This document shows positions 4,105 to 62,801 of a DNA stretch of 64,000 nucleotides, in pieces (the stretch's first letter is position 1; each line of letters opens with the position of its first letter). Both the position numbers and the translations under genes were made by a program. The notes under the pieces were generated by a model. That model searched no databases. It was not told where the DNA came from and saw only the letters and a list, made by a program, of their open reading frames with translations. Source of the stretch: Cephalotus follicularis (Eukaryota; Streptophyta; Magnoliopsida; Oxalidales; Cephalotaceae); assembly GCA_001972305.1 (NCBI GenBank), contig BDDD01000320.1, forward strand, positions 682,001-746,000, in the 5' to 3' direction.

Positions 4105-4250
4105 AGACGTCGACCTTTTCCTTAAAGGCGTCGACGCCTTTAAGTCTTCGTCCAGGTCAACTGACGGATATAACTTCAACGCGTCGACGTTTAAAATTAA
4201 GACGTCGACCGCTACCCAAGGCGTCGACTCCTTTAATAAAAATGTCAACT
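4105..4250. repeat. GTCGAC palindrome cluster in LTR 1
   Basis: At least five sites with a GTCGAC core or one-step variants occur in about 145 bp: AAGACGTCGACCTTT, AAAGGCGTCGACGCCTTT, ACGCGTCGACGTTTAA, AAGACGTCGACC and AAGGCGTCGACTCCTTT. The second is the centre of a perfect 24-base palindrome at 4121-4144. Similar clusters occur in eight other element families in this window. Confidence 0.9.
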
Positions 4251-4440
4251 CTCTTTAAACAGTTTTGTCAACTCTTAGCCTTTTAGATCGACATTCATCC
4301 AAAACAAATATCCAATCATAGGGTACCCCGTACTCCCCGAGCGTAGGGTCATACTACGGGTCCCTTGAAATTTTTGCCAACTACACAATAGCAATCATTT
4401 TTCATAATTAATATCTTTACTGGAAATTCGGGTCATTACA

Positions 4441-4922
4441 ATGCCGATACTGGAGTGATAGCTGTTATTGTAAGAAAATTCTATCAGAGGTATATGGTCT
4501 TCCCAGGTACCAGCAAAATCAATCACACAAGCCCGGAGCATATCCTCCAAAGTCTGGATGGTACGCTCAGACTGCCCATCGGTCTGAGGGTGGAAGGCAG
4601 TACTCAAGTTCAGCTTTGTCCTGAAGGCTGACTGAAATCTCTTCCAGAAGTTGGAAGTGAAGATAGCATCTCTATCACATACGATGCTTACTGGAACCCC
4701 GTGCAGTCTCACTATCTCCTTCACATACAGTCGAGCCAGTTTGCTCGCAGAATCAGTAACATGTGTCGGTAGAAAGTGCGCTGATTTGGTGAGTCTATCC
4801 ACGATAACCCCCACGGCGTTATGATGGTTCCGAGTCAGAGGGAAACCTGAAACAAAATCCATTGTAACATGTTCCCACTTCCACTCTGGAATGGGCAAAG
4901 GCTATAGCAAACCTGCCGGTCT
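4441..4922 (-). pseudogene. Integrase core, truncated by insertion of element 1
   Basis: The core motifs are present in order: [10 protein letters not shown] with the first Asp, a [10 protein letters not shown] block, [13 protein letters not shown] with the second Asp, and [20 protein letters not shown] with the Glu. After [12 protein letters not shown] the frame runs into the LTR of element 1 at 4440/4441, where the family normally continues MAPYEALYG. The integrase C-terminus is therefore displaced to the left of the window. Confidence 0.9.
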
Positions 4923-5330
4923 CTAGTGCTCGGCCTTAACTGTCTGGAAGGTATAACACTTTACAACATACTCAGCGATCTCTCGCTTCATGCCGGGCCA
5001 CCAGTAACACTTCTTCATGTCTTGATACATTTTCGTGCTACCAGGATGAATGCTGTACATGGATTTATGAGCACAGCGGAGTAGCTGATCCTTCACTCCA
5101 GGCTCGTTCGGAAGACATACGCGTCCCCGATATCTCATAATACCATCATCATGTATCTTAAAATCAGACTCCGAATCTAGATTCTCTCGAATCCGCTGCA
5201 ATTCAGGATCATGTGGTTGTGACTCTTTGATGCGATGCAGTAACACTGGTTTTACCTGCATGTCGGCTAGAAAGATTCCCGGTGACTGATTGAATGGAGA
5301 CCATTCTCGGAAGTCTTCCAACATCTTCCA
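4923..5330 (-). pseudogene. Integrase zinc-binding region (element 2)
   Basis: In frame with RNase H, this covers the linker (LEDFREWSP, a VKPVLLHRI segment) and the HHCC zinc domain: HKSMYSIHPGSTKM with both His, then KKCYWWPGMKREIAEYV and KCYTFQ. The last Cys of the expected C-x-x-C pair is Phe, so zinc binding is probably lost. A TAG at 4923-4925 ends the frame after VKAEH and fits a CAG to TAG change. A second TAG follows a few codons later (near 4902). Confidence 0.85.
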
Positions 5331-8380: not shown

Positions 8381-8474
8381 TTTCCTATAAGAAGATTGAC
8401 GGTCAGTCACAACTTAAGGAAAATGATTCTATAATTGCCAAGGAAAGTATCCTAGCTAAGCATATATGGAATAT

Positions 8475-8486: not shown

Positions 8487-9797
8487 CTCTTGTCACACCC
8501 CGTTTACAATAGACGCAGCATTAAAGCGGTAAAGGCAATTAACATAAGATACAGCTAATGTAAAAAAAAAAACTGTAAAACTTAAAACTTTTCTGAGAAC
8601 AACAGTTGCGGAAGCATAAAAGAATATAAGCTGTCAACACGTAACGTGCGTCCCATACCGCACGCTACCCGAATACAGGTCAAGAGTTAATCGCCCATAA
8701 AACGGAGCGTGAGATAACAGTACAATATAAAATTCCTCCAAGTACAAAACCATAAAGATGGCACACCCGGATCAATAATCCATATGGGTTTATTACAAAC
8801 GAGATAATAAACAAAACAGGAATAATAATAGCATTGTCTTCATCCATGCTGATCCAACAGTCCACTGCATCAATCTGTAAAGTAGGGGTTAGCCTTTGTC
8901 CTCACTCGGCTAAGTCATAACAGTAAATCGGGATTAACATAATGCATGTCATGATATGAATGCATAAATGATGCAGTGCAGTGGAGACCCAATTTATACA
9001 TATATGAAAATACGTATATCAGTACAGTAAAATATCGTTGTTACATATATAAAAATATATGTGTACAGTAACAGTGCAGTAGTAACCCGGCCAGGGCTAC
9101 GTCAACAATCACAGTAATGTCCGTAAAGGACCAGTAAACAGTACAGTAAAGTATGTCCGAATAGGACCACAAAAGTCAGGATGTCCACATAGGACCACAA
9201 CAACAGTTATAGCGCCGCCAACTCCTGGCCCCATGCTACACTCCCACCACGATCCCCACATCGGGCAACCAGGTGAGGCAACAGTACAGTGGGTCACCTA
9301 GCCATGCTCCAGGCCCCTAGGCCCGCCCTGCCACTAGTCATCATTGGCAACCTCCGCCACGCAACTAGCAGCTCAAACACAATCACAATCAATTCACAGA
9401 GCAAACAGTGCATTTAAACAGTAACAGTACAGTAAACAGTAATGATCGATTTGATCAATAACAGGCAGTTATTTTTCAAAATGTTTCCCAAAATTGACAA
9501 CATTTGAAGATAAGTATTTTCAGTAGGAAATATCAGTAACAGTTTCAGTAGTGTAAATCGTTTATCCGTTCGGTTGAAAGTATGTTTATTTGATCAATAC
9601 ATATTTTCATACTCAAATATCTCATTCTGAGCTCATTCGTGCATTTCTAAAGCATCAACACTTTTGAAATCATAAACAATACTCAAACGGTACACAATCA
9701 GGCAGTAAACAGTACATATGTAATGCATACATATGCTCAAATGCATCCAAATAGAAATTGGGATCGTTCCGTGTCATCCGATGAAGAAATCTTCAAA

Positions 9798-10085
9798 CAG
9801 TAACAAAGACGTCGACGTCTTTCCCAAAGACGTTGATGTCTTTGAGTCATGCATCGAAATCCAAGCCTCAGTGTCAGCTTGTTCTTCTACAGAAGGAACC
9901 TTAAACGACAGCGTATCATGAAATGGCATCGATGTCTAACTAAAAGGCTTCGATGCCTTTTTCAACAGAAACCAGGTAAGCAGCCTGGGTGTCGATGTCT
10001 TCTCAAAGACGTCGATCCCTCTCAGTCAGTAACGAGGTAAAACATAAAAGACGTCGATGTCATTATAAAGAAGTCGATGTCTTTT
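9798..10085. repeat. GTCGAC palindrome cluster 1 in LTR B
   Basis: The cluster begins with a perfect 18-base palindrome AAAGACGTCGACGTCTTT at 9805-9822 and continues with AAAGACGTTGATGTCTTT, GGCATCGATGTC, AAAGGCTTCGATGCCTTT, GGTGTCGATGTC, AAAGACGTCGATCC, AAAGACGTCGATGTC and AAGAAGTCGATGTCTTT. Most differences from symmetry are TG or CA in place of CG, as expected from deamination of methylated CpG. Confidence 0.9.
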
Positions 10086-10828
10086 CAGCAGGGGTCGTCT
10101 TCAACCTCACGATTCATCGAACAGTGGTCATAACAATCCGCAATCATGCATAACATCGGGTTTTCATAGCAACAAACCAACACACAGATACTCCAAACAT
10201 ATCTATTATGTCATGGCATCAATCCAGTAGAAAAACCAGTACAAGAAACATGCATTTTTATACACTCCAAAACCATAAATCATGCATGAATATTAAACTC
10301 AATTTACAGTATGGCTTTCCCCTACCTCTGGCTTCAAGTTAGAAACCGAAAGTCCACCTCTTTTAGTATTCCACAAAGTCACAGCAGCCCCTCTAGGTCC
10401 GTCCCGTAGCTGCACCAGTAGCTTCAAGGTCCAAGCTCCAAGCTTCAACAATGGTGGAATACACACAGTCACTGTTTCACTCTCTCTCTCTCTCTCTTCT
10501 GGTGTTTGTAAAACGAGAGAGACAAGTAGGGAGGGTGTCCTTTATGCAGAAGGCTCTCCCCCGACATTTCCTCTTGGAATTTAACAGCCCTACACATGCT
10601 CTCTCCCACCTACTCTCTTTTCTGCATTTCTTTTACATTCTTTAACCATTCTTTACATTGCAGGTAGCAGGTGAGGATTCCCCTTGCATGAATCATGTGA
10701 GGGCATGTTCTGGAAACACACCCACATGCACAACACGCCACAAAGCACTCAAAAAGGCGTTAGGTAAGTCCCTAAACAATTCCCCCTAGCATGTTGTTCT
10801 GCCGACGAAGAACGTGCTGGCCATTCAT

Positions 10829-10991
10829 ACAAAGGCGTCGACGTCTTTCCTTGGACGTCTATGTCTTTGTCCAATCGTAAGAAGGTGTTGATGCCTCCTT
10901 CCTGAGTCGACGTGCATGCCCATGCATTCACGTGTGCCCTAGCTCACAAAGGAGTCGACGTCTTTCCAAAAGACGTCGATGTCTTTTGGCC
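10829..10991. repeat. GTCGAC palindrome cluster 2 in LTR B
   Basis: A second cluster in the same LTR contains AAAGGCGTCGACGTCTTT, GGACGTCTATGTCTTTG, GAAGGTGTTGATGCC, GAGTCGACGTGC, AAAGGAGTCGACGTCTTT and AAAAGACGTCGATGTCTTTT. It lies close to the LTR upstream end. Confidence 0.9.
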
Positions 10992-11023
10992 AAAACAGCG
11001 CCGTTTCATGCTTTAACATACAC

Positions 11024-14717: not shown

Positions 14718-15646
14718 GGTAATACCCTGCTCGTTCGTATATGTGTTTTACGAACTTTTAATATGTTTGTTTTCGGGCTTTTAAAATTTTGTTGTTATAT
14801 GTAGTCCGTTTGCCTGGTATTGGGCCTATGTGTTTTGGGTTGACTGATACCAGCCTAAACCTTGGATATGTTGGTATGTGAATGCTTGGGTTTATGTTAT
14901 GTCAATTCTTAATAAAAATAACTATTTGAAAACAATTTTATCTCTTTTATAATTCAATTCTCTTTTCTTCTATTTTAAAATTCCTTATTTTCTATTTTTT
15001 ATGTTATTTCCTTTTCTTCCTTCCCTTTCCTTCTCTCACCCGAATCCTTCTCTTCCTCAAACTCTATCTCTCCGAAATCTCTCCCTCTCTTAACTCCTCA
15101 AGCGTTTTCTTCCTCTCCTTCCTTATCTAGCAAAAATTCTCTCCCTTTTCCCGTTTAAGAGTGGTTTTTGGTTCATTGTGATATGCCGTTCTCTTTTCTC
15201 TTGTCTGCTCACTGCCGAATTCTGCAAAGATAGAATTGTTTTGGTTCCTGTGAAGTTGCTCCATTAAAAAGTCAGGTTTGTGCTAGTATTTCAATCCTTA
15301 ATTGTCCTATTTTAGTTATTATATCCTTTGACAGGCTTTGAGGTTATACGTTCTTTTTCTTTCCTATTATTTTCTGTTGATCAGTTAATTGAGTTTGGAA
15401 ATCGTTGTGTTAATACAACAGTCTTGTATTGCCATTACAAGTTAGTTAATTCTTTTGCTGTGGTGGTTCATGCTACATTGTTATGAATCCGATTTTATGT
15501 TCATTTTGGCTATGAGAGGTTGGTTTTGTCTTCTGTCAATTCATACTATGTTGTTGTTCTGAGTCAGATGATCAGCCTTTAGGCGTCTGTACTTGTTGTA
15601 ATCTGGTCTTAGAAATTGAAACTGACTGTTGACAGTAATATTGGTT

Positions 15647-15655
15647 TATAAATAG
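15647..15655 (+). promoter_or_regulatory. Candidate TATA box in LTR C
   Basis: TATAAATAG in the first third of the LTR is a good match to a plant TATA box and would place the transcription start near 15680. The homologous position in the solo LTR (near 39175) is no longer a TATA box. This is inferred from sequence only. Confidence 0.4.
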
Positions 15656-15857
15656 GAATGCATGTGATTAGAGTTCACTTTGTTCTTCTTTGAATATAAC
15701 CACTGGTCATAGAATCGTGTCAATTCTGTGTTTTCCTGCTGACTAAATGCCGTATAATGTCTTGTGTATATGTTCATATGTCTCTGGTATAGAGTTAGAC
15801 ATGTTTGGATAGTTTCTGGATTGAATAATGTGGAGTTCTGCTATTCTAACATCTAGA

Positions 15858-16071
15858 ACAGTCGGTTGTTCTTATGGACAGTCGGCTGGTTTGGTTGTGT
15901 AGTCAGTTGCCTTATGAAAACAGTCGACTGCCTTGCTTTGTACAGTCGGCTAGACTTCTATAATAGTCAACTGCCTGCAGTATGGTTTGTGTAGTAGTTT
16001 GGCCCTGTTGGATAGTCGGCTGCCAAGCTTCCTCAGTCGACTGGTTCTCTGTAACAGTCGGCTGTTTTGCC
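15858..16071. repeat. CAGTCGACTG cluster in LTR C
   Basis: About ten sites of the form CAGTCGRCTG or one-step variants lie in roughly 215 bp, for example CAGTCGGCTGG, CAGTCGACTGCC, CAGTCGGCTAG and CAGTCGGCTGTTTTGCCCAG. The solo LTR has the matching cluster at 39394-39606 with corresponding spacing but different substitutions. Confidence 0.9.
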
Positions 16072-17563
16072 CAGAAAATGCTTGTTTTCATTTTTTTTTA
16101 ATCTATTTGTTCTTCGAATCGATCTGGGTGTGTTCTAAACACTGTAATGAATCTGTTTTATGTCTCTAATGATTCTCAGACCCTTATATGAATGCTTTGT
16201 ATCTTTTAGATTGTTGTGCTTCAAAAAGAAGTTTGACCTAACAATCTTTTCATAAGTACTTTTGTGAACGCATAAGGTACTGATATTCTGCTCTTTGATA
16301 CTCTCTTCGACTTTATCGAGACAAAATTCAGTTTTGATTTGTGAATGGATATTCGTTTCCTTAATATGTTTCTTCGGTTTTGGAACTTTGCTACGTTTCG
16401 AATTTGATATTTCTGAAAATAAAGTCAGTTTTGACATTTTGCGAAATTGAATGTTCTCGACTTTATTCTTATGTTATGATAGATTATGATATGTTATATG
16501 ATATGGTCATCTCGTTTATAGTGAGAAATAAATGAGTTGATACTCCAAATATGAAATGTATCATTTGATAACGATTTTCAAAAATTTTTGGAAAAGCATA
16601 TTATATGTATTTCTAAATTGATTTTGATAAATCAATGTTTTGGAAATGATTGAATACTGAGTAATTGTACCCACCTATGGGGCGTACCATAGGCATGTCA
16701 TAGGCCTGGCACGGGGGCATGACACTTCCATAGCGGTGTGATTACTCTATGACGTCTTTGTATGTTATGAATAAATCCCATGAGGTGGATTTATGGATCC
16801 ACTATGTATGATAGAGGCGTATGAATCGATTCTAGTTTATGACATATGTGATAAGATATGCAATATGTGATATGATATGATATGATATGAGAATTGACTT
16901 GTATAGTGTCGTACACCTCAATTCTAATGGGCATGTGGAATTAGCGGCTCCCTTTCCATATATGTTTCTGATATGTGATATGTTATATGACTCAGTATGA
17001 ATTATGAAATCGTGATTTTGAAATGTTTCGTATGTATATATTTCAAAGTTATGAATTGGGTTTCATGATGTTCGGAAATGAACATTTAAATGATTTACTG
17101 CTTAAGATTTCTGTTACGAGTTTTATTGAAATCTTACTACTTTTAAATTATCGTTTACCATTTTATATTCTTTATCTGTACTAAGGTTTGCTCAGCCATG
17201 TTTTTGTTTTCAATGCGGCAAGTTATCAATAGCAGCGCGGGAAATTGTGAATGAGAGATGACCACATTTATGTCATGGATCCCTAGGAGTGTGATCCCTA
17301 TGTGTTTTTAGTTAGAGTTGGTCATGAACAATAAGATACTTTTGGTTTATATTTTTAATAATTGACCCTTGGAACATATGTTTTAAGTTTTCTGAATATG
17401 TTAAGTTTTTTAGTTTATGATCAATTTTCAGTATGTTATGTTTTGACCGCCACGTTTTTGGCTAATAAAGTTATGCCTATGTTATGTTTAGTTAAGTTAT
17501 GTTTTGTTAAGTTATGGTCTGTGTTATGACCTGTGACAACTCCCGCCGTTCAGGGGTGTTACA

Positions 17564-17912
17564 TCGCCACTTTGAGTCCATCGAATGATCTTGAAAGCTT
17601 CTGTTTTTAACCGCTGATGCATTTCTCTTAAGCATTGACACCTTGGTCCAAACCGCTGCCGCTTTTCATGAGACCGTTGATGCTTTAAGCAGTTTTGTTT
17701 TATCTTTGCAAAACTTCAACTATTAACGCTTTGACTAAGACCTTCTTCGGTTTTCCCTTAAGCGCTACCGCTTCCATACAAACCGTCAACGCTTTGTCAT
17801 GTTTCTGCACTTTCTTGTTTTGTTTTGATTAAACATTTCTTCACATCAACAAACACGTTAGGTGCTTTGTTATCATCAAAACCAGGATTGTTAGACAAAA
17901 CCCCAACAAATT
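17564..17912 (-). repeat. Copia-type LTR fragment with palindrome cluster
   Basis: On the minus strand this begins TGTTGGGGTTTTGTCTAACA near 17912, a common start of plant copia LTRs, and is cut at 17563 by LTR C. It contains a loose cluster of GTTGACGC-type sites (AACCGCTGATGC, AAGCATTGACACC, AACCGTCAACGCTTT, AAGCGCTACCGCTT). No coding sequence is seen. Confidence 0.5.
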
Positions 17913-18579: not shown

Positions 18580-21321
18580 TGTAATGACCTGAACTATTGT
18601 ACTACATATTATCCTATGTATGCATCATTATTGTACTGTATTGACCAATCTGTGTATTTTTATATACCCGATATATGATTATTGTGGGATTATAGCACTC
18701 TATATTCTCATCCTTATTTTAATGATTGAGTATATGTTCTCCTATTACTGTTCGGATACATTTAAGTTAAGTTTCGGAAGGTGGAATCGCTAATAACCGT
18801 GACCATATGTTTTGGAGCATTTGTGGCCACTTGTTTCTTTCTAAAAGCTTCCCCTCCCTACTCTCATTTGAGATAATTCTTCCCCCCTCTCTCTCTCTCA
18901 ATATCTCTATGCTGACCAGCTCCCCCCTCTCATCTCCCTCTTCGTTTTCGTCCCCTCACTTGGCAACAAAACATCTCCCTCTCATCTCCCCTTAAAACCC
19001 AATCCCTTCCCGCTCTCTACCTCTCTTTTTCTTCACTTCTTAACACACACACTTCTTCTCCTCTAGTTTCTGTCATTCCAAGTCAGTGTATCTAATGGGA
19101 AGATCGAGCTCTAATCTTACATCTACAACACCATAGAAGCTTGGATGCATTAGGAAGCTTTAGACTTTAGTCTAACCTCCGATTTTTGTAGATAATTAAC
19201 CACTACAAGCTTATAATAATTGTCAGGTAGGAAATCTCAACCTAAAATTCTTAAGATTATGCACATATAAATTGTATTTGAGTAATTAGATTGATTGAAA
19301 TTGACTGAATTGTATTGAATGTGAAGATCGACGAAAATGGATTTTTAGATCCATTTTAGCCCATTTTTTATCTGAGGACCTTCAGGTGTTCCAAATAACT
19401 TAATATCTTGATATGTCATCATTACACATGTCTAGATTATCTCCCAAAAGTTTCATTTCAAATGGATCAGAAATCAGACTTGAATCACATTTTTCAAAAA
19501 GTTGAGTTTTGAATGGAAATCTCGTTTTCTGCTACTGTCAAGATAAGCGTCACCGCTTAGCATCGACCGGTAGTTCCTATTTTCATAAATTTCAGCTCGA
19601 TCAATCCCATTTTCATATATTATTACGTTCAAAACGTTTTACCAATCAAAAGATATGGCTTCTCAAAGTTAAGTGGGTCTTATTAATCCTCAAACATTGT
19701 TTTAACAACTGTACTACATGATTTGATCTCAGATCAATCCTTTTATATGTTTGTCAACTTTTGACTATCGAAATGTGTTGTTTTCACAACTAAATGGTTT
19801 TAACCCATTGATTCTTCTTCGATAGCCTTTCTAGGCCCGGTGACTAGCTTTATAAACTTGTTTATAAACCTTTTGATTTAAAGGAAACTAATTTACCAAA
19901 AGATTATATTGAAATGGACTTTGAACTTAAACAAGAAAACCTTTGTTCTGCCTAAGCGTTGGAGCTTTACCCATAGCGTCACCACTTACTGCAGTTTTAC
20001 CTTTGGAACTTATTGATGTCCATCTAAAGCGTTGCCGCTTAAGTTGTGAGTATTGTTGCTTAACCTGGGTTCATCCCAGTGTATAAGCGTTGATGCCAGG
20101 CCAAATAGGCTAATCATCGTTGCTTAAGCCTGGGTGTCGTTGCTTAGCTCTACTATCATAGAATTGAACTAAGGCATTTAAGCGTCGGCGGTTGGCTTGA
20201 AGGTATCGCCGCTTAGGCCTTGGTTCCCACTTTTAAAATATTTTCAATCTTTTTCAAAAATGACGGCTTGATCAGATCATCACTTGAGATCACTCAAGCT
20301 CTTTTCGACTATTTTCTACCTGGTTAGGCAGGTCATGATCTTTTTGTAGATCAATTGATTGTACAACACTTTCAATTGACATGATTGACCGACTTATTCA
20401 TTGATCGATAGATTGCTTGACTAACTAATTGAACTACAGTCTTATCATTGATTGACTCGTCATATGGTTAACCCCATCTGTTCCCTCTGACTGGATCATC
20501 ACTGCCTTCGAGTATATTGATTGAGCCGCCTATGGGCTGAGCTATGGATTGAGCCACTAATGGGTAGAGCTATTAGGTCGCCAACTGGCAGAGCCATAGC
20601 CGCTTTTGAGCAGAAATCTATTGAGCCGCTTTTAGGTAGAGTTATTGTGTACTTAGATGGTACCCACCACTAAGTGGGTTTAGATAATCAAGTCTGGCCA
20701 ACTGGAGACAACTAGACATATCTAACCACCTTTTTCAAAGGATTACCTTCTGTGGCTAGGTTGTTGATATTGATATTGATGCTGACATTGTACCATTTAT
20801 TGGAGGTCACATGCTCTATAGGATTCATTGGGTGTATTTATACACCACCTTTGATTGTCTGACTTATAATTGATAGGAGTGACTGATTAGATCTCATTCA
20901 TTTACACCGGTATGGGACAGTTGTATACGAATGGTAGATCACAACTGGCATTCATGCATTCACACACTACTCACTGATATTGTACACATTGATATTGTAT
21001 ACGTTGATATTGTACACCAATATTGCATATTGTTTACATAGCATAATCCACACATGAGGATATACCTACTTGGCCCTATGGCTAACTCCTCCTTTGGGAT
21101 GGGGCAACTATTTTGCTACAGGTACCACAACGAGGACCAGAGATCGTCAAGATTTTTAGCTGTAGCCGCTTGCTTGAAGATCGAAGATTGTAATGTTTAA
21201 GCTTTATTGATTTTCTTTCTAGCATGTATTGAGTAATGTATTGACTTGGACCAAGATTGTATTGTATTGTACTAAAAGTAACGGCTAGGGTTTGTCACCC
21301 GGACGCACGTTAAATGATGAC
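18580..21321 (+). repeat. LTR family H, 3' end cut by element 3
   Basis: It starts TGTAATGACCTG, as gypsy LTRs in this window do, has a CT-rich stretch (18840-19070), palindrome-like sites, and a GGCTAACTCCTCC block near 21080 that parallels the conserved block of families A and B. No GTGACA- or TTACA-type end is found before element 3 starts at 21322, so the LTR is probably interrupted there. No second copy is in the window. No gene is seen. Confidence 0.5.
19531..20220. repeat. GCGTYRCCGCTT-type cluster in LTR H
   Basis: Loose symmetric sites recur, for example ATAAGCGTCACCGCTTAG, TAAGCGTTGGAGCTT, ATAGCGTCACCACTTA, AAAGCGTTGCCGCTTAAG and TATCGCCGCTTAGG. The arm is AAGCG/CGCTT and the centre varies. 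This is the family H counterpart of the TCGA-centred clusters elsewhere. Confidence 0.65.
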
Positions 21322-21491
21322 TGTAATGACTGCAAATTCAATTAATGTATATTTATTTCCAATGTTATAATAAATATACATTTTAATTGAATTAATTGTC
21401 CAATTATTATATTCTTCTGTGTTTGATTTTGTTTGGAATGAATAGAGGTTCGTTTGGTGAAAATCGAACTTAAGAAACCCTAATTGACCCT

Positions 21492-21580
21492 TGACAGCCG
21501 ACTGACACAGGGGATCAGTCGACTGCCTAATGAGTATGGTGAACAGTCGACTGGCCCATGCATCCAATCGACTGGAAATT
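21492..21580. repeat. CAGTCGACTG cluster 1 in LTR A
   Basis: Four sites in 90 bp: CAGCCGACTGA, CAGTCGACTGCC, CAGTCGACTGGCC and CAATCGACTGG. The 3' LTR copy (27533-27620) has the same four, with the last restored to CAGTCGACTGG. Confidence 0.9.
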
Positions 21581-22597
21581 TGACAGAACATGTGTCTGTG
21601 CAGGTGTAAGACTGGGCTTGAGCGTGGCATGCTTAAGGACAGGTGTCGGGGGCATGTACAAACATCCATAACATGCAGAGATAACCCTTGCATGTGCTCT
21701 GCGATGACAGACCTGCACCCGCAACATTGAGAAGAGAAAAAGAGTAAGAAACATGTGCATGTGAGAGAGAAGGAAATGTGGGAAATGTTAGATCAAATGA
21801 TCTCTGACGAATTCATGGCTTATATCAACTGTTGAGTGGTGTGAAGGAGTGTTAGAAACACTGAACATTAAAGAGAATTGCTGGGAGTTTTGTTGGAGCT
21901 TGCATTCGAATGCATGTTGATGGTTTAAAGCTCAAAGAGGGAAAAGGAAGCTTTGAACATCTCCTGGTAAGTTCAATTCGAATTCTCTTTGTTGTTGTAA
22001 TCTGACAGTAAGGTTAGGAGAATGTGTAATCTTTTGTTAACATGATTGATTAACATTTCCAAGGAATTAAAGGAATGATATGGAATGTAACTTTCGGTTC
22101 AAGTAGATGGATATCAATCTCTAATTGGATAGTAAGTTGTTGATTGCTATAAGCTACTGATTTCCTTATGAATATACCTACACTTCTACTGTTCACTAAG
22201 AGAATATGAATTGAGATAGTTGGACATGCATAAGAAGTGGTAAATTGGGGAGTTGATATAAAGCTTAATGTACTAATAACTTAAGCTACTGATTGGAATG
22301 GCTATAAGTGTTACTGAATTAACTGAAAATGATGCATGTGTCTATAAACATGCATAGATTGAACTGCTGTGATTGAAAGAATTATTGGTGGAAAGCTTGG
22401 AAAAAAAAAAGGCTTTGGAACATTAAAGAGAAAGATCACTCAATTGATCTTGGGATAGCAAATTGATGTAGGGGTAGTGTTATGATTTGGAAGATATGTT
22501 CATGCATTTCATGTATGTTATTTTCTACTTGCATTGAATTGATTTGGCACTGAATTGCACTACATATACACTGTTCTGCATGCATTTATGGGCAAAA

Positions 22598-22730
22598 ACA
22601 GTCGACTGCCATTGAAAGCAGTCGACTACACAACGGATCCAGTCGACTGTCAAGACCCAACAGTCGACTACTCAACCCAACAGTCGACTGGTTCTTGAGG
22701 GAAGTAAACTGGTCTGGGCAGAAATTGCAT
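22598..22730. repeat. CAGTCGACTG cluster 2 in LTR A
   Basis: Five CAGTCGACTR sites are separated by short spacers and preceded by GCATTTATGGGCAAAAACAG. The equivalent region of the 3' LTR (28632-28775) lacks one spacer plus site and has gained a duplicated site with its CTGGGCAGAAATTG flank, so copy number changed after insertion. Confidence 0.9.
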
Positions 22731-24066
22731 ATCATCAATTGAATTGTTACTGTTTTGCATTGCTATTGAATTGTATATGATACCATCATTAAATAGATAC
22801 TGGATGATGTTATTTTAAAATCATTATTGCTGATATTTCAATGATCGAATGAGCTATGTACTTTATGCACCAATCATGGTTTTAAACCTTGCTTCTAAAT
22901 GAAAATTATGATTTACAAGAATTACTGTCACTGATTAATGTTACTGCATATATTACTATGTTAGTATATACTGTTTGGTGCTACTAACACCACTACTGAT
23001 AGTTTAAAGATTGAAAACCATTTATGGGCCTTGTACCCAAAATTATGATATTTATTATCATTTTCAAAAGAACATGTATTGTCAAAGGTAACTACTGATT
23101 TTTCTCCTACATGAGAGGCTACTGTTTTTTTTCCTCACTTGGAAACCACTACTGTACTGATATCGTTTCCCTCACAGAGATGTACGATTACTGAAATGTT
23201 TTATGTTTCTAAGGAAAACATTTTGATATTGCATATTATTTATATATGTAGTATTATTACTGAATTGCACTGATTGAATTGATTGTCTATGCTTACTGTC
23301 GTAGTCGAGTGATGGCAGAAGTCACTGACTACGGAGGTGATCTTGTGTGCCAGGAGTTGGCCAGGGCACCCACCTTACTGATCTGCATTGCAGACCATGT
23401 ACTGTTATCTGCCCGCTAAATGCCGGCAGCACTGTTGCCTTCTATCATCAGCGGAGTTGGGGTGATAGCTAGGTGGTTCGACGTAGGCTAGGGGTTAGCG
23501 ACGTCTTGAGCCCACTACTGGTCTTCGGACAAACCACTGAACTGAATTGATTGTACCCTTGTGCGGTATCTTTGCATATGTACTGTTTATGGCCACTTGG
23601 CATGATTGCTTATATATTGGCTCATTGAAATGATATTTTATATAAACTGTCATACATGCTGCATTCATATATTCCTTAGCATACATTATCTTCCTACTTA
23701 GCCAAGTGAGGACAACGGCTAACCCCCCATACAGTTTCAGATTAAGTGAAGACTTGGAGTTGCGGCTGAAGCTTGGAGAGCTTCTACTTTTGTCGCTTTA
23801 AGGTTGTTATTTTCTTTTGATGTAATGTAATGAACGAATCATACCTCGTTATGTTGTTTTCCTTATGTTAAGGATAATGTTGAATTATACCCGCACGTAG
23901 TATGGGATGCGTGCGGATGGCTTGAAATTTTTATATTCCGGCTTATTGACTGATTCCGCATATTGTTATATTCTTTTAAATGAAATGCTGGAATGTATGT
24001 TTAATACTGATATCACCATATATGTTGTCCTATGGTATGTGACCAAAAAAACGAGGTGTGACAACA

Positions 24067-28881: not shown

Positions 28882-28931
28882 AGGGGAATAATATGATACC
28901 ATCAATTGAATTGCATATCATATAATGGATA
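28882..28931. other. Scrambled filler at the A/B LTR junction
   Basis: About 50 bp holds ATATGATACCATCAATTGAA, TTGCATATCAT and ATAATGGATAC. All of these are near-copies of words found 50-130 bp upstream in LTR A (ATTGCATATCATCAATTGAA, TATGATACCATCATATAATA, GATACTGG). After GATAC, family B begins. It looks like templated filler made during end joining. Confidence 0.7.
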
Positions 28932-36431: not shown

Positions 36432-36885
36432 TCCTCTCCTTCTTAGAGAAATCTCATCCCGAGATTCCCTAATGTCAAAACAAGTAAGGATATAACGCTC
36501 TCACACCTTCCATAAGTTCCCATGTCACTTCCTCAAGCCCATGATACTGCCATAACACTTTAACCAAAATGATGCTCATGCTCCTTAACTGCTTGACTCG
36601 GCGATCTAAGATTTGCAAAGGTGTCTCCTCAAAACTCATATATGCCCTCAACTCCAACGAATCAAAGTACAATACGTGGCAAGGATCTAGATGATACTTC
36701 CTCAATATAGCAACGTGGAATACTTTGGGCACTTCTGACAAGTCTGGCGGTAAGGCAAGTCTGTCAACAACTGCACCTACTCTCTCAAGGCTCTCAAAAG
36801 GTACTATATACCGTGGGGCTAACTTTCATTTCTTGCCAAACCTCATAATTCCTTTTGTTGGTGAAACTTTGAGGAACACATGATC
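36432..36885 (-). pseudogene. Pol C-terminus and polypurine tract of gypsy element G1
   Basis: From the right, the minus strand reads HVFLKVSPTKGIMRFGKK, a stop where the family has a sense codon, then VPFESLERVGAVVDRLALPP, then the open frame from 36741: MSEVPKVFHVAILRKYHLDP, MSFEETPLQILDRRVKQL and VKVLWQYHGLEEVTW, ending ALYPYLF. This is the chromodomain-like end of pol. The tract TAAGAAGGAGAGGA (36432-36445) abuts the LTR. The upstream part is cut by copia F at 36885/36886. Confidence 0.85.
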
Positions 36886-40995: not shown

Positions 40996-42070
40996 ACTGA
41001 AAAAACCAGTAGCTTTGCGCATCGACGCCATGAGGTCTACACATCGACGCCATAACTAGAGAAAGCCGCTGGGCATTAACGCTATGGAGGGCATGGCTTT
41101 GACGATTGCAAAACCAGTAGGTATGCACGTTGACGCTATGGGTGTTACGCATCGACGCGAAGACAAATGGACTCGGTGCCTGTTTCATCTTATCCATGGC
41201 ATTAACGCCTAGATAATATGAGATGCATGGCGTTGACGCCTAAACTCCCTGACGCGCGCTGCAGTAGGAGAGAGAAAGTCAACACTATAAAAGGCTTGAG
41301 AGAAGCTTGTTGAACACACTTGAGACTTCCTCTTTCTCTCACTTCCCTGCCGTGCTGTCTCTTGTTCCTGCTGGCATACGCATCAATGCCTAATCCAACA
41401 CTTTGACGCCTACATCGCCTAGTGCCAATTACAGCCATTTTCAAGCTTCCTTTCACCACTCAAAGTTCATAATAGGTGAAGATAACTTGCACACTGCTCT
41501 TTATCTTTACCTAGAGTGATTTAGACTAGGTTAAACACTTGGCCTTCTTCTTCCTCATTCGTGGTTTGAGGATTTGCTTGGAGGAGCTTGAAGCACTTGG
41601 ATTCAAGTGGAGAGGGAGCTTATCTTGAAGGAAGAAGTCTTTACCTTTGGTAAGAACCTCTTCTTCTTCTTCCTCTGTTGCACCATGGCAGTGGGTGTTG
41701 GTTAGGGTTTTTGTAAAACTAAACCTCCATGGGTTTTGTTGGTGCTTTCTTTCCATCCCTTAGGGTTAGGGATGTGTGGAATTGGGTTTCTTGGGCATTA
41801 GGCTAGGGTATTGTGTGTTTGCCTTGCGCGTCTGTGTGTGTGCCCATTTGTTAGGGTTTACGGCAACCCTATTCGAATCCCGAATTCCTTGTGCTTGGTT
41901 TTGGTTTGTTTGAATGTTTATTAGAGTTCCTTGGCATTTATTGGGACAATTCAAACATAGATTAGGGCACCTCATTGCTTGGGGATTAATCTATTTGTGG
42001 AAAATTAAAGTTAATCGGCCCTAATCTCTAATGTCTGGATTGATAAATCTTCCGCTGCGCATGGGCCACA
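40996..42070 (+). repeat. 5' LTR of copia F, second part
   Basis: It continues the LTR after the solo LTR C. It contains palindrome-like sites (GCGCATCGACGCCATG, ACATCGACGCC, GGCATTAACGCC, GGCGTTGACGCC) at 41017-41235 and again at 41380-41420, then a CT-rich and TTCTTCTTCTTCC leader-like region. The exact end is uncertain; I place it at CCACA near 42070, 13 bases before the primer-binding site. Confidence 0.7.
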
Positions 42071-44722: not shown

Positions 44723-44907
44723 TCAAACTGGAATGGGTTACAATGGGTTAGAGAGAGAGGCTCCCCCTTCTCTCTAGCCTTTTTCACCCTTTCTTTTTTC
44801 TTCTCCCGTTACCTTTGAAATCTTATCTGTTTCCCTCCCTTCCCGTTTTTTTCCCCTCTCGGGTGTTGCCCGTCTTTTTGACCAGCCTTCTTACCCCCTA
44901 CCTTCTC

Positions 44908-52172: not shown

Positions 52173-54900
52173 TGTCACACCCCGCCTTTCGATTACATTA
52201 AGAGACAAGCATATATGGTGATATCAGGAATAAGTATAATTATTCAGCATTCCAATAATAGTTCAAAACATAAGCGGAAGCATTCATCTTTGAATTATTT
52301 AAACGTAATTCATCCGCACGCAGCCCATACTACGTGCAGGTACAATCCAACAAGATCCTTAAACAAAAGGAAAATACAACAACAACAGGGTGTGAATCGT
52401 TCATTACAACACAGTACATCGACAAAATAACAACATTAAGTTGAAAATAGAAGCTCTCCAAGCTTCAGCAGCAATCTTCAAACGTCCTTGCTTAATCTGA
52501 AATTATAGGGGTTAGCCGTTGTCCTCACTTGGCTAAGTAGGAAGATAATGCATGCTAAGGAATATATGAATGCAACATGTATGACAGTTTATATTTAAAA
52601 TAACATTTAGGTGTGCCAATATATAAGCAATCATGCCAAGTGGCCATAGACAATACATATGCAAGAATACCGCACAAGGGTACAATCAATTCATACAGTG
52701 GTTTGGGTGTCACATGTCGCTAACTCCTAGCACCAACTGTGCACCACCTAACTATCACCCTGCAGTCCGAGGATGATAGAAAAGGTAACATTTACTACCG
52801 GTGTTTGGCGGGAAGTTTAACAATAAGATCTGCAATGCAGATAAGTTTGGGTGATACTCTAGCCAACTCCTGGCACCTAGGATCCCCACCGTAGCCAGTG
52901 ACCTCTGCCATCACTCGACTAACGGCAATACACATAGACAATCAATTCAATCAATACAATTCAATAATAATATTACATATATAAATAATATGCAACATCA
53001 AAGTGTCTTCTTTAGAAACATATAACAATTCAGTGATCGTACATCTCATAAGAGGAAAACGATATCAATACAGTAATGGTTCTCGATTTGGAGAACAAAA
53101 CAGGTGGTACCTCTCATAGGAGGAAAAATCAATAATTTCTTTAAACAATAGAATTGCATTTGAAAATGATAGTTGATATCATAATTTATGCACATGGCAC
53201 TTAGTTGGTTCAATCATTGTAATATAAGTGATAGTGGTGTTCAATAGCACCAAAATAGTATATACTAATATAAGGTAGCATATACAGTAACAACATTACA
53301 AGACAGTAGCAATTCAAGGATTCACTTGGAATAGCATTTCATAGTCATTCATATGCAACTCTCACAAGGAGTGCGTACATTGTTTAATTTAGTGATGTAA
53401 TTGTATATAAGGCCAGGATTGATTGTTCTAATCATCCATATGGAGGCTAAGTTAATTACATTCAAAATTGAGGCCCAAACAGAACCTATATCAGCATTTT
53501 TACCCAGGATAGTCGGCTGTTCTCAAGAACAGACGGCTGTTTTGGTTGAGCAGTCGACTGTTTTGTCTTAACAGTCGACTGGATGCATTAAGTAGTCGAC
53601 TGTCATGAAGAACAGTCGACTGCTTCTGCCCAGAAATGCAGGCAGTAGCAGTTTGTATACATTTTAATATCTATTGCAATCCAATCAATGCATGCAATCA
53701 AGCAGAAAATAAACATACATGATATGCATAATATATCTTCCATAAACATGTCATTACCCCTACCTCAATTGGTTATCCCAAGATCAATTGGAATTGATCT
53801 TCTCTTTGAGTTTCCAAGCTTTTCACCAACAATCCTTTAATTCCAGTAGGATCAATCTATGCAGTGCATGCATGAAGGTTTAGTCATTACCCAGGCTAAC
53901 TAATTATCCATCCACAATCACTACTTCAACAGTAGTTTATGAAGAGTTCATTAAGTCCCTTTTTCAATAACTTTTCTCCATTATTCACTTCTACTTCTAG
54001 TAACTATCATGCTTGCATTTTACAGAAGGTGTATATATATGTTTAGACAGTATACACGTACTTAGGGACAACTATAACAACAACCCTAATCAGATCATAG
54101 GTTTATCAACAATTCTCTAAGATTCATGTCCATGTTCTTACTCCCTTACATTACCATTTCAATTTCAATTCTAGAATTGCTAATCTTAACCATGTTAACA
54201 GAAGACATCTTACCATCCTCCTAGTTACATTATCATCACATGGCAGTGAGTTTGAATTGAGGACTTACCAAGAAAACCAAAGCGTCAATTCCCTCTTTGA
54301 GCTCTAATCCATCAACATGCAAGCTCCAATAATCCTCCAGCAATTTCCTCTTCTCTCAGTGTTTTCTAACTCACATTCAGCTCCTGGACAGCTGATATAA
54401 AGGTTTGATTTCGCCAGACTCCTTACTCAGCTTCTCTCATTTCCTTCTCTCTCTCACATGCATTTTGCTTGCATTTACTTTCTCTCTTTCCCATCTTCTG
54501 TCTGCAGGTTGTAGGAGGGATAGAAGACATGCAAGCATGCCTTTTTGCATGCTCTGGCAGCTACTGTCACGCATGACACCTGCCCCTCATGCAATGCCCT
54601 TGGATTTCGTCTCACAGGCATGCACAGACACATGTTCTGTACCGATCCAGTCGACTGTCCTCAAAAGGCAATCGACTGTCCATTCTCGCCTCAGACAGTT
54701 GACTGTTCCCCTATGACAGTCGGCTGTCGATGGCTGTTTTAGGGTTTCTTAAGTTTGATACTTCACCAATGGTACATCCATTCATCCTAAGCAAATACAA
54801 ATCACAGAAATTATAATAATTGGAAAAATAACTCAATTAAAATGTATATTTTATTTTAAAATTGGATCAATATACACTAATCGAATTTGCGGTTATTACA
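52173..54900 (-). mobile_element. Solo LTR, family A (2728 bp), target duplication GAGAG
   Basis: The plus-strand ends are TGTCACACCCCGCC and GCGGTTATTACA; on the minus strand it starts TGTAATAACCGCAAATTCG, like LTR A of element 3. GAGAG lies on both sides (52168-52172, 54901-54905). No interior is present. It interrupts RT of copia F between Arg and Val of the QRV/CKLQ region. It holds clusters of CAGTCGACTG at 53507-53628 and 54646-54736 and the conserved block at 52510-52537. Confidence 0.95.
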
Positions 54901-58802: not shown

Positions 58803-60615
58803 TTTAGCAACCTAGATAAGGAAATATAAGCATGAGTTAGCATATATTCCAATTTTAATATATGATAACCATAACACTTGGTCTTTAGTGCTTATGGTTC
58901 CTACCACTATTCTAATCGTATCCCATACCCCCAGATGGAAATCGAGAAGTCTAACTTCCTAGTGGGGATTGGAATCCATCGCAATCATATTATAGCCTCA
59001 GTTAGGGCATGACAAACTATAATATATCCTATGGGTAGGTTATCTTGCCAATTTGTATCCAATACAAGATCCAATCATAGTATTCGGCCTTAGATTCAAT
59101 ATGGCCTCAGCTAGGGCATGACAAACCATAAGAATCTTGATAAGTCAAGTAGCCACAATTTTCATTGGAATGCACTAGTTTTAACACCCACACGTAGGCG
59201 TGTCCAAGTGCTAAAACATAGCCACCCTTTGCGGTGCCCAACACTGACGTTGACATAATATCCCCAAGTTATCAGCCTTAGTTAGGGCATGACAAACCAA
59301 CAAGCTAGGAACACTACTCAACGAAAATCGTGGAAGGCCACGGGGAACCACTCCATGGGTTCCTACGTTAAGACTTATTATTCAAGCGAGGGAATTTGCG
59401 GTCTCAAATTTTAATTACTGAGCCATTAATTAATTCATTGGTTGTATTAGCCGATTCCAATTAATTACGGCTTAGCATGCAAGACGTGTATCTTATGCAC
59501 CTTGGACATATTTCTAAAATATGTCAATGGATTGGCTAGGACATTATTAGTAGTGACTTGAGCCCAAAATCACTACTAGGTCTTCCTAGGTGTAAATATT
59601 TAAATCTATTTATTACAACAATAACCATGCATACATGGCCTTCAAAAGTCTTGTACTCCATTTCTCCTTTCCTCCATCTCTCCTTGCAAAGTCTTCTTTT
59701 ACATAAAGAACTTTACATTTTGAAAGGAAAATTACATTTAAAAATTACAAGGAGAAATTACAAAAGTAAGGAAAAGTAAATGGTGCACGCAGGCACCTTA
59801 TTATAGACCTTTAAAAATAATAAATAAATAAATCCATCCACACAAAGAAAACCATAAACTAGGTCTATGTCCTTCTTGGGCCATCCATTGTGCATAAGAC
59901 TTATATAATATCCAATATTATAAAACACAAATAAAACAAATGCCATAAATAATAACCGATTATTCAATTTAATTCAGGGATTGTTAACTGATCAAACTCC
60001 CACTAAATCAAGCAATCATTTTTGATTTTCTAAGTGTCAATTTGTATAAAATCCAATTTTATTGAAAAAATAGTTTTTTTTTTTATAAAGACGTCGACGC
60101 TTCCCAGAAGGCGTCGACCCATTTTATGAAAACTACTGAAAAAGGCGTCGATGCATAACACGAGCATCTATGCGTTTCTCAAGAACTAATGAAAAAGGGC
60201 GTCGACATTTGTCAACAACATGGACGCGTGTCCTGGAAATGATGAACAAGGCATCAACGTCTATCAAAAACATCGATGCGTTTCTTGGAAAGATGAACAA
60301 GACATCGACGTCTATCAAGAACGTCGACGTCTATAGCCCCCTGGGCAGTTTCTGCATTTTGAAAAAAGCAGAAAAATAATGATTTAAACTTTGGCATTCC
60401 ATTATGGCAATCCAAACTGCACTATGCATGTTCTAAACATAATCTAAACACATTATTTCATAATCAACAAGTCATAAACACAATGAAATCCAATTTCATG
60501 CAATTTTCATTAAGGCACTTTGAAATTTTAGTTTGATCATAAAACACATCCATTAATTAAACCATTAATCAGTACATCATCTAAAGCAAAAATTCAATCA
60601 AGGATGATGAGGGAC
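58803..60615 (-). other. Long leader of copia E with a palindrome cluster
   Basis: 1.8 kb lies between primer-binding site and gag start. No convincing frame is present. AGGTCTTCCTAGGTG near 59578 matches the F leader. Several GCCTCAGYTAGGGCATGACA repeats occur near 58996, 59104 and 59276. A cluster of TCGA-centred palindromes lies at 60089-60335 (AAAGACGTCGACGC, AAGGCGTCGACCC, AAGACATCGACGTCTA). Confidence 0.7.
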
Positions 60616-60627
60616 GCTCTGATACCA
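60616..60627 (-). promoter_or_regulatory. Primer-binding site, tRNA-iMet type (copia E)
   Basis: The minus strand reads TGGTATCAGAGC, one base from the LTR edge at 60629. Confidence 0.95.
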
Positions 60628-60628
60628 C

Positions 60629-62801
60629 TGATGGAAACGGATAAACCGAATCCGGAGCCAAAAATGGAATTAGGCATATAGGGTGTAGAACAAAACAAAA
60701 CATACAAACATGGCAGCGAAAGAACACCCAATAAAACAAAAAACCAGTCAATTATGGCACGTCCATAGACCACATGGATCACCACATCATCAACAGAATT
60801 GAATTGGTGTCACCATAGCAAACAATGGTGACACACAAGCATGGCAAGAAGAGAAGGACCAAAAGATATACCAGCGGGTGAAGGCTCCTTCTTTCTTTGC
60901 CGCTACACGCTTGAGTAGATTCCCTTTTTAATCTTCTCCAAGTCTCTGGAACAACAAGCAATCCAACCAGCAATAACAAAGAACAAAGTGTATGAACTCT
61001 CTCTCTCTCACTAAGCTTAGAAAAGGTAAATTGACATTGACCAATGAAGTCAATAATCAATCCACCCTAGATAAGCCCTTGCTTGGTGTATCACAGATGA
61101 AGGGAACACACACTACAGAGAAGAATCCGAAGTCACATTGCCCAGCAAAAACTCTACTCCTCTCTAAAAAACATTTTCTGCAGAAAATGTTTTTAACTAG
61201 CCTCCTCCTTCTCTCTCCCACTCTCCCATTCACTTAAGATCATGGTCCCTACTCCTCGGGAGTCTGTAGCCATTATCCCCATGTTTCCATAACATGCAAG
61301 AATGGGAGATGGCTGCTAGAGATGAGAGAGAGAACGTGCCCACGAAGTGAGCTCGTGCACAGGTTGCACGTTCTGATCAAAGACATTGACACCTTCCAAA
61401 GGACATAGACGCTTATGCAATGTGGTTCCAAGAACATAGACTCTTTCTAAAAGACATCGACGCCTATAAAAAACGTTAAGCATCGACGTCTTTCTAAAAG
61501 ATGCCGACACTTTGTCTGGCCAGTGAAGTAATAAGAGTCTAACTCCTTTAGTGATCTCCTGTACCCTTCGAATTTAGTTAAGTAAGATGGCGCATATGTG
61601 TTTCAACAAAATGCAAAATCCACATAACCGATATTTGACACCAAGACTTAATATGTCCAACATATTAAAAAACTATTCATTATAAGGTAGGGACCCTTTA
61701 AAATCTTGGTTAAAACAAGAGGTGTACATAAATTACCGAAATACCCCTAGGCTCTGGTTTAACCATTCTAAATGGTCATTGACCAATTTGAATGCTATTG
61801 GAATAATATCCAAATATTATCCAGATGGAAAAATTAATCTAATTAATTTTCTCATACACCTCATAAACCCTAGATTTTCTAAGTCGTCGGTTCACGTGTA
61901 CTATAATCCCTTGTCATACTTGGCCCCGATTGAGGTCTAGGGTAAGGATATGTGTCAACCCTAGATAATACCTCAATGGCTAAAATATCTTATCATTACT
62001 AGGACCTTTGGTAAACTCTCCAGAAATCTAATTTCCAGTCTACCTTAACCCTGACCAAGGATTTCATAAGTCCAAAGTATAATCTGATCATAATAGAGCC
62101 GATCACCTTCGCTCAGGTGTGACAATCTCATATTGCACACTAACTTATATTCGTATAGATTTGATCATACCCAAAGACCACCCGATTGGCAGCCCTGCGC
62201 AATGACTGGGTAAGGTGGAGATCAAAGCATAATCGTCTCCATACAATATAGAGCAGTCGCTTAGGTCTAAGAATCAGACGAGTTTTAGAACTCGCTAAGT
62301 GATGATCACTTATACATAACTGCAACAAGTAGGAATCACTACTGACACGAGAATAGCGACTATCCAAATAGTATCTCCTACGCGGGTCCTGTTCAGTGTA
62401 CACGCTCTCAGCGCGCACCCCGTATTTGCCCTAGTGTCCAACACAGATGGTAGTGAGAGAATCCATCCTCCAAATCCATGAGCAGGCAACATACGCGCAA
62501 GTCTATCTGGTTCACTAATGCCCACAAAGTGAACCTATGACTTGGAACTAATTCGACATAAGGAATAAGGTAACCAATCTCACAGCCTCTATGCTAGGCA
62601 TCCAACCTTATGTCAGAGCATCACAAGTGTAAGCAGGTAAATAATAAACTACTTTAATTAAGTGGTATAACACAAGTGATATAGCCATAACAAAATTAGC
62701 ACGCATCATATATATATATATAAAAAATAAGATTGTTTCATACAAGATATGATATAATGTGACAACCCATCTAATGGTTTGCCGGGTCACTATATCTAAC
62801 A
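60629..62801 (-). repeat. 5' LTR of copia E (family D, 2173 bp)
   Basis: It has complete ends (TGATGGAAACGG, TATATCTAACA) and its upstream 0.8 kb recurs at 11360-12175. A second palindrome cluster lies at 61378-61510 (AAAGACATTGACACC, AAAGACATCGACGCC, AGCATCGACGTCTTT, AAAGATGCCGACAC). A CTCCTTCTCTCTCCC stretch lies near 61205. No gene. Confidence 0.95.

Follow-up and report, generated by a model that had tools for sequence, protein, structure and literature searches.

Clusters of short palindromes two helical turns apart in plant gypsy LTRs and a copia leader: possible operator-like arrays for a dimeric host factor

Repeated binding sites for host factors are known in plant LTRs from the stress-factor boxes of Tnt1, Tto1 and ONSEN, which differ from the arrays described here in their motifs, and whose factors and inducers are known. 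A closer layout is that of the Sireviruses of the Ty1/copia group, whose LTRs carry clustered short palindromes called repeated motifs (RMs), at least eight per element, with element-specific arms; the RMs are CpG-rich, form a CpG island, sit upstream of the TATA box within the upper LTR half, and are termed Sirevirus-specific (PMC2829016). Two of the 13 RMs listed in that source are TCGA-centred, CGGTCGACCG of Vitis and ACAATCGATTGT of Tnd-1, an element described there as being without the CGG-CCG core among Sireviruses. The statement of the sequence-only reading of this DNA that no such arrangement had been described in LTR elements is contradicted by these clusters, and the array layout reported below is already known from Sirevirus copia LTRs. 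No palindrome arrays in plant gypsy LTRs were found in the titles and abstract openings of the chromovirus, U3 and gypsy palindrome literature, and for CAGTCGACTG, the dyad type of LTR A1, none of the matches listed was by its title a paper on retrotransposons. Scans of viral contigs gave no usable locus; a scan of genome contigs gave one bacterial locus, which was judged to be a chance tandem repeat.

Palindrome clusters do exist in the window (the whole stretch of 64,000 bp analysed, probably from the Australian pitcher plant Cephalotus follicularis), as the sequence-only reading had claimed. GTCGAC occurs 45 times against 5.3 expected from a first-order Markov model and ranks first in over-representation among the 64 palindromic hexamers and also in the general hexamer ranking, which took in only hexamers with at least 10 occurrences. 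Eighteen claimed intervals, comprising 3443 of 64000 bases, contain 41 of the 45 GTCGAC copies and 69 of the 223 TCGA, the density of the latter being 20.0 per kb versus 2.6 outside. In comparison with 200 dinucleotide shuffles, there are 29 TCGA-centred palindromes of at least 10 bp (shuffle mean 2.6, maximum 9) and four groups of at least three such palindromes within 300 bp (mean 0.01, maximum 1). With the 15 other palindromic tetramers as the centre (50 shuffles), one group each was found for ATAT and TATA and none for the rest, and ATAT-centred palindromes were likewise enriched (20 vs 7.3). TCGA is not universal in the clusters, being present in 16 of the 18 intervals, and GTCGAC in 13: there is none in 17605-17800 or 38190-38271, and 19531-20220 contains four TCGA only, mostly outside good dyads. 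The first and the last of these three have AAGCG-N4-CGCTT dyads instead. A cluster at 29205-29590 had been overlooked by that reading. LTRs A, B, C and G with their arrays, and array L1, are as follows:

4105..4250, minus strand: array L1, AAAGGCGTCGACGCCTTT type, 5 dyads, spacings 21, 53, 21 and 19
8491..11023, minus strand: LTR B, 5' LTR of the minus-strand gypsy element at 4398-8413, PBS at 8475
9798..10085, minus strand: main array of LTR B, AAAGACGTCGACGTCTTT type, 7 dyads
10829..10991, minus strand: second array of LTR B, 4 dyads as two doublets
14718..17563, plus strand: LTR C1, directly following chromovirus domains 12185-14714
15858..16071, plus strand: array of LTR C1, CAGTCGRCTG type, 8 dyads
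21322..24063, plus strand: LTR A1, 5' LTR of gypsy element A, PBS at 24067
21492..21580, plus strand: second array of LTR A1, CAGTCGACTG type, 4 dyads
22598..22730, plus strand: main array of LTR A1, CAGTCGACTG type, 5 dyads at 20-21 bp
27361..30885, plus strand: LTR A2, 3' LTR of element A
27533..27620, plus strand: array in the A-like part of LTR A2, CAGTCGACTG, 4 dyads
28632..28775, plus strand: array in the A-like part of LTR A2, CAGTCGACTG, 6 dyads
29205..29590, plus strand: array of three AAAGACATCGACGTCTTT doublets, 21 bp each, within the segment of LTR A2 that resembles LTR B
34204..36478, minus strand: LTR G, PBS at 34186, upper end placed at the start of the adjoining SH3 frame
35556..35740, minus strand: array of LTR G, AAAGCGTCGACGGTTT type, 9 dyads
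38272..40990, plus strand: solo LTR C2, TSD TTAAC, inserted in array F
39394..39606, plus strand: array of LTR C2, CAGTCGRCTG type, 9 dyads
52173..54900, minus strand: solo LTR A3, TSD GAGAG
53507..53628, minus strand: main array of LTR A3, 6 dyads at 20-21 bp
54646..54736, minus strand: second array of LTR A3, 4 dyads

The arms of the dyads are family-specific. What the sequence-only reading called LTR B belongs to the element at 4398-8413; the 5' end of this LTR lies within or past an N gap (11024-11359). Array L1 adjoins the integrase end of the same element and shows no match to its 5' LTR. Assignment of LTR C1 to the chromovirus domains preceding it was dropped, no PPT or TSD having been found. 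LTR A2 is chimeric, its first 1.5 kb resembling A1 and the remainder LTR B.

In A1, A3, B, C1, C2 and G, and likewise where A2 is B-like, a distance of 1.3-1.7 kb separates the main array from the LTR 3' end, a regularity that the sequence-only reading had not noted. In the LTRs of 2.7-2.8 kb (A1, A3, C1 and C2) the array lies 1.13-1.39 kb from the 5' end, near the middle. TATA-like words are present 3' of the array in all seven LTRs scanned, and some upstream as well. The protein pieces of the gypsy elements match one another, and because of this match and the equal distance of the arrays from the LTR 3' end, shared descent is a viable explanation for the gypsy cases. The contrary view, that the clusters recur in nine unrelated families and that shared descent explains them poorly, therefore fails on the first count, the gypsy pieces being related and one 3' LTR (A2) an A/B chimera, and is unsupported for the gypsy cases on the second.

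The arrays resemble Sirevirus RMs in being CpG-rich clusters of palindromes with element-dependent arms, placed in LTRs, and at least eight clustered copies are found in A1, A3, B, C1, C2 and G (9, 10, 11, 8, 9 and 9 dyads in total, respectively). They differ in their carriers, which are mostly gypsy rather than Ty1/copia Sireviruses, with gypsy domains in both A and B, and the CGG-CCG core, sought as CGG-N0-4-CCG, is absent from 19 array intervals. The Sirevirus PPT AGGGGGAG has a single occurrence in the window, at 44761 on the minus strand, and does not adjoin any of the LTRs described. A further difference is the distance between dyads of about 21 bp; the portion of PMC2829016 available to us gives no spacing for RMs.

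This distance, on which the sequence-only reading was silent, corresponds to two helical turns, and adjacent dyads frequently form doublets. Twenty-six of 114 TCGA pairs within 64 bp are spaced 20 or 21 bp, with 3.8 expected if the distribution were flat, and, of the 78 distances between neighbours that do not exceed 80 bp, 53 fall at 19-22 bp (a set of 106 sites with hand-drawn cluster borders and mismatch limits per motif, which includes A2, a near-copy of A1). When all pairs were scanned for periods from 8 to 14, the maximum was at 10.4 bp (R 0.31, from 193 pairs that are not independent). Helical phasing beyond immediate neighbours is not borne out by the distances other than ca. 21 bp (29 of 30 up to 109 bp), which are unphased at 10.4-10.5 bp (p 0.43 and 0.29), with a nominal p of 0.034 at 11 bp.

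It is chiefly because the spacing is the same for 10-bp and 18-bp dyads that, of the explanations put forward by the sequence-only reading, predicted binding sites for a dimeric factor are the best inference. That the clusters are operator-like arrays bound by a dimeric host factor and acting as LTR enhancers seems to us, from the sequence pattern, to have about an even chance of being right. A sequence-specific protein would sit on each dyad as a dimer; a host transcription factor is the likeliest kind, and DREB/CBF-like or bZIP proteins may be considered. Neighbouring dimers two turns apart would occupy the same face of the helix and could cooperate, and the array as a whole may enhance transcription of the LTR, for which the RMs of Sirevirus LTRs offer a comparison. 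In the gypsy LTRs the array position would fit inheritance, the arms of one array having been replaced together over time, while an array found in a copia leader (see below) may have been captured or have a separate origin. There are counterpoints to the operator reading: the arrays lie far from the presumed promoters, the differing arms require several factors or one tolerant factor, and the CpGs of the arrays decay as elsewhere.

In ten hand-listed arrays, identity amounts to 86% for dyads (47 pairs), 41% for linkers (24 pairs) and 30% for random LTR pieces. Since the linkers are somewhat alike, part of the spacing was made by tandem duplication, and array G and the segment 28712-28774 are plain tandem repeats. 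The arrays might thus be a functionless by-product, in which ca. 21-bp units with a chance palindrome were duplicated and then spread by LTR copying and recombination, the latter evident in LTR A2. We find this account rather unlikely, as the dyads are kept far better than the linkers, arrays with other arms and that of the copia leader show the same spacing, and the position in the LTR is retained.

Symmetry of the dyads could also serve RNA, the palindromes folding into hairpins in the element transcript and acting in packaging, translation or small-RNA production, as proposed for maize Sireviruses, whose palindrome clusters are described as carrying an excess of small RNAs (Bousios 2016, as cited in PMC10760457). 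Five of nine stretches fold much better than shuffled sequences (z -4.0 to -6.9) and the copia E array lies within a transcribed leader, but the other four stretches are weak (z -0.9 to -2.6) and a folding tendency is general to any palindrome array. Covariation of the arms, which the sequence-only reading had put forward as a check, is absent within families, and between families it reaches significance at no pairs other than ±2 and ±3; among broken pairs G.U is not in excess of A.C (49 vs 62, p 0.25; 95 of 106 sites, the A-like part of A2 left out). Nor is there an obvious RNA reason for a constant 21-bp spacing despite differing dyad length. Hairpins fit less well than a dimeric factor, and we hold them to be rather improbable.

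The arrays differ from the rest of the window in CpG observed/expected ratio (1.10 vs 0.56) and GC content (0.47 vs 0.40; pooled values for 17 intervals). Such CG-rich dyads could be targets of a silencing or anti-silencing protein, as is the case of VANC acting on motif arrays of VANDAL elements, where the targets are tandem repeats differing between related transposable elements (PMC5735166, PMC10398659). The comparison with VANC, drawn by the sequence-only reading, is a fair analogy of layout (PMC5735166), but Pfam scans of 30 pieces gave retroelement domains only and no VANC-like protein. VANDALs, unlike the carriers here, are DNA transposons encoding their own VANC, and motifs such as YAGTATTAY are not described as palindromic in the portion of PMC5735166 available to us, unlike the present dyads. 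Short repeated motifs read by plant transcription factors at silenced loci are also known from Pol IV recruitment by REM/GDE1-CLSY3; these motifs, as given in PMC12270911, are direct repeats of TTTTGCTTAT with a one-base spacer, and by-eye comparison showed both their sequence and their symmetry to differ from those of the dyads, so that identity of the two was rejected. Old copies have lost CpGs inside the arrays no less often than outside them (hand sums of those kept in both C1 and C2, 4 of 14 inside arrays and 24 of 64 outside; A1 versus A3, 7 of 18 inside and 18 of 44 outside), and therefore no constraint after insertion is visible. An epigenetic target is accordingly improbable in our estimate.

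The remaining arrays, including that of the copia E region, are:

17605..17800, plus strand: array copX, AAGCG/AACCG-N4-CGCTT type, without TCGA
19531..20220, plus strand: array H, AAGCG-N4-CGCTT dyads and, 20-21 bp from them, weaker partner sites
38190..38271, minus strand: one portion of array F, which solo LTR C2 interrupts; GGCGTNGACGCC type
41017..41235, minus strand: remainder of array F, on the other side of solo LTR C2
60089..60335, minus strand: copia E leader array, 8 dyads, AAAGACGTCGACGTCTTT type, several doublets of 19-20 bp
61378..61510, no strand given: array E2, decayed AAAGACATCGACGTCTTT type, outside the stretch common to both copia E LTRs

In copX, eight of the 12 permissive matches form two runs of four at 21-bp steps (4 of 10 mismatches allowed, as in array H). 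The array at 60089-60335 sits between the PBS at 60616 and gag, and was correctly placed in the copia E leader; the sole clear copia case is thus in a leader and not in an LTR. Array E2, ascribed to the LTR of the same element, lies 243 bp past the stretch common to the two E LTRs, and its assignment to copia E by TSD was rejected (no usable TSD). Homology of arrays F and E2 was considered as well; their flanks align at 62% over 1068 columns, the array itself not convincingly.

The two parts of array F, listed by the sequence-only reading as two intervals, are one cluster interrupted by solo LTR C2. This insertion, together with a weak preference of plant LTR elements for palindromes (PMC6911290), might suggest that the palindromes are integration hot spots. 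That is very unlikely indeed: it is one event, the TSD of solo LTR A3 is not a dyad, LTRs are reported in the same source not to be commonly targeted, and neither the arrays nor their spacing would be explained.

If the clusters are operator arrays, palindromic LTR arrays would not be a Sirevirus speciality, and the 21-bp doublet would predict two cooperating dimers, which would make the factor easy to look for. More speculatively, and with a small chance of being right, the gypsy elements of one plant, together with one or more of its copia elements, may carry two-turn CG-dyad arrays because they all exploit, or evade, a single family of host DNA-binding factors, replacement of the arms of a whole array at an inherited place in the LTR being the retrotransposon counterpart, outside Sireviruses, of VANC/VANDAL target turnover. 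LTR families with different arms, and the natural chimera A2 with both kinds, would offer a test of whether a host factor is re-targeted when the arms change.

The window is plant DNA densely filled with nested retroelements. The copia gag frame at 57045-58595 (-) has its best match, among 120 listed, in Cephalotus follicularis, at 86% across 56% of its length, followed by matches from other plants or ones unnamed or labelled otherwise, and the first 64 of 120 listed matches to the protease piece at 6716-7555 (-) all carry the same species label. Palindrome arrays, i.e. clusters of short palindromes (dyads), and the LTRs carrying them are:

4105-4250: array L1
8491-11023 (-): LTR B, the 5' LTR of a gypsy element on the minus strand (4398-8413), with its own 5' end in or beyond the N gap 11024-11359
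14718-17563 (+): LTR C1
17605-17800: array copX
19531-20220: array H
21322-24063 (+): LTR A1 of element A, PBS at 24067
27361-30885 (+): LTR A2 of element A
34204-36478 (-): LTR G, upper border set at the start of the adjacent SH3 frame
38190-38271 and 41017-41235: array F
38272-40990 (+): solo LTR C2, TSD TTAAC
52173-54900 (-): solo LTR A3, TSD GAGAG
60089-60335 (-): copia E array
61378-61510: array E2

C2 sits within array F (38190-41235), its target being a dyad-like word, GCGTTAAC. L1 is adjoined by tandem repeats at 3092-3342 (61-bp unit) and 3951-4044 (22-bp unit). A LINE with DUF4283, endonuclease and zf-RVT frames (45613-50154) apparently splits a further copia element (43679-52198; gag at 43679, integrase at 50568, RT at 51896). 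Other features are a 197-aa frame with no Pfam match (55027-55617, -), a segment (54964-55129) 72% similar to copia DNA at 56715-56550, and a perfect 28-bp palindrome, found as an opposite-strand self-match (61167-61194).

The clustering of TCGA-centred palindromes proposed in the sequence-only reading is real, but the centre is not universal. GTCGAC occurs 45 times in the window where 5.3 copies would be expected; no other palindromic hexamer of the 64, and no other hexamer with at least 10 occurrences, has so high a ratio. Of the 45 copies, 41 lie in the 18 intervals originally claimed, which occupy 5.4% of the window. Perfect TCGA-centred palindromes of at least 10 bp number 29 (200 shuffles: mean 2.6, maximum 9) and form four groups with at least three members inside 300 bp, compared with at most one in shuffles, so that cluster density exceeds that of shuffled sequence; among the 15 other palindromic tetramers, only ATAT and TATA produce a group at all, one apiece. 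CpG is frequent in the arrays (o/e 1.10, against 0.56 elsewhere). Two claimed intervals, however, lack TCGA entirely. In LTR C many dyads are CAGTCGGCTG, while copX and H have conserved AAGCG and CGCTT arms on either side of varying cores; all ten matches to AAGCG-N4-CGCTT with at most one mismatch fall in copX, H or G.

The sequence-only reading overlooked the spacing of the dyads. Among 114 TCGA pairs up to 64 bp apart, 20 are separated by exactly 21 bp and 26 by 20 or 21 bp (3.8 expected under a flat distribution), 42 and 62 bp being the next most frequent distances; the same test on 15 other tetramers gave a slight excess for AGCT (6 vs 2.3) and ACGT (4 vs 1.4). When sites were located by family consensus, 78 neighbour distances of up to 80 bp were obtained, 53 of them 19-22 bp and 33 exactly 21 bp, a count including the near-copies A1 and A2 and thus partly non-independent. 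Spacing is similar for 10-bp dyads (20, 21 and 22 bp found 7, 21 and 2 times) and 18-bp dyads (19, 20 and 21 bp found 3, 3 and 6 times), and copX, which lacks TCGA, has 12 permissive matches, of which eight make up two four-dyad runs with 21-bp steps. Doublets with irregular gaps between them are frequent in L1, B, E and the B-like tail of A2, where three doublets at 29205-29590 had been overlooked. Within ten hand-listed arrays identity is 86% for dyads (47 pairs) and 41% for linkers (24 pairs), against 30% for random LTR pieces, which suggests that dyads and linker length were retained while linker sequence was mostly replaced, with some residue of tandem duplication. A three-dyad pattern scan of genome_contigs matched solely a Myxococcales MAG contig (L001 4532-4607), in which a 21-bp unit containing CAGTCGACTG is perfectly repeated in tandem 3.6 times, probably a coincidence.

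Shared descent had been considered a poor explanation, a view that finds no support for A, B, C and G. These appear to form one chromovirus lineage, since their protein pieces, including the domains before C1, match one another (30-85% over 20-163 residues) and the piece preceding C1 has a chromodomain; no such placement was obtained for L1, H, copX, F and E2. LTR C is placed here by adjacency and similar LTR ends only, and no PPT or TSD joining C1 to the preceding chromovirus domains was found. In A1, A3, B, C1, C2, G and the B-like part of A2, a distance of 1.3-1.7 kb separates the main array from the 3' end of the LTR; A1, A3 and B carry a second array, 2.35-2.56 kb from that end. With a probable common lineage and the same distance to the LTR end, an inherited position with changing arms would account for the gypsy LTR arrays better than independent origin. 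Element A is flanked by ATGAC and ATGAG, and its 3' LTR is a chimera: the initial 1.5 kb matches A1 and the remainder matches LTR B at 62-65%, so both palindrome kinds occur in a single LTR. In copia E it is the leader that carries the array. A related copia has a leader (42244-43629) that can be aligned to this one no further than 59939, which places the array within sequence missing from the relative; the first doublet of the array is 82% similar to L1 across 49 columns, making capture possible.

The arms were said to change together, which holds between families and not within them. For 70 cluster sites selected solely by GTCGA or TCGAC, matching at pairs +-2 and +-3 exceeds across-family shuffles of right arms (observed value reached in 0 and 1 of 2000), the excess at pairs +-4 and +-6 is borderline (122 and 100 of 2000), and pairs +-5, +-7, +-8 and +-9 show no significant excess. 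Within-family shuffling abolishes the excess, and 51 sites outside clusters have none except at one pair position (7 of 500 shuffles). Symmetry is thus a property of each family consensus, and single changes are uncompensated.

Between binding of a dimeric factor and RNA hairpins, both among the roles suggested earlier, a protein on DNA seems favoured. RNA pairing is expected to favour G.U among broken pairs, and no such excess was seen (G.U 49, A.C 62; p 0.25); together with spacing constant across dyad lengths, this argues for DNA binding. Folding was far more stable than in shuffles for five of nine stretches (z -4.0 to -6.9) and weak for the other four (z -0.9 to -2.6). Against a strong claim for protein on DNA count the lack of 10.4-10.5 bp phasing among neighbour distances other than about 21 bp and the loss of CpGs between old copies, which is as frequent in arrays as elsewhere (kept: 4/14 vs 24/64 and 7/18 vs 18/44; hand sums).

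The likeness to VANC targets extends to layout and turnover, but Pfam scans of 30 pieces of the window gave no evidence of a VANC-type protein. The supposed absence of any description in LTR elements is contradicted by PMC2829016, in which Sirevirus LTRs carry palindromic repeated motifs, termed Sirevirus-specific. These stand upstream of the TATA box in at least eight copies, with arms that vary from element to element, and often mark CpG islands; some are centred on TCGA (Vitis CGGTCGACCG, Tnd-1 ACAATCGATTGT). A maize paper states that TE cis-regions are frequently repeat arrays, sometimes palindromic (PMC10760457). The window arrays are outside the Sirevirus motif family because every carrier with clear domains is a gypsy element and a search of the arrays found no CGG-CCG core. 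A limited literature search tentatively suggests that such arrays in gypsy LTRs lack an earlier description. In appearance the window arrays resemble the Sirevirus motifs, and they probably work like them.
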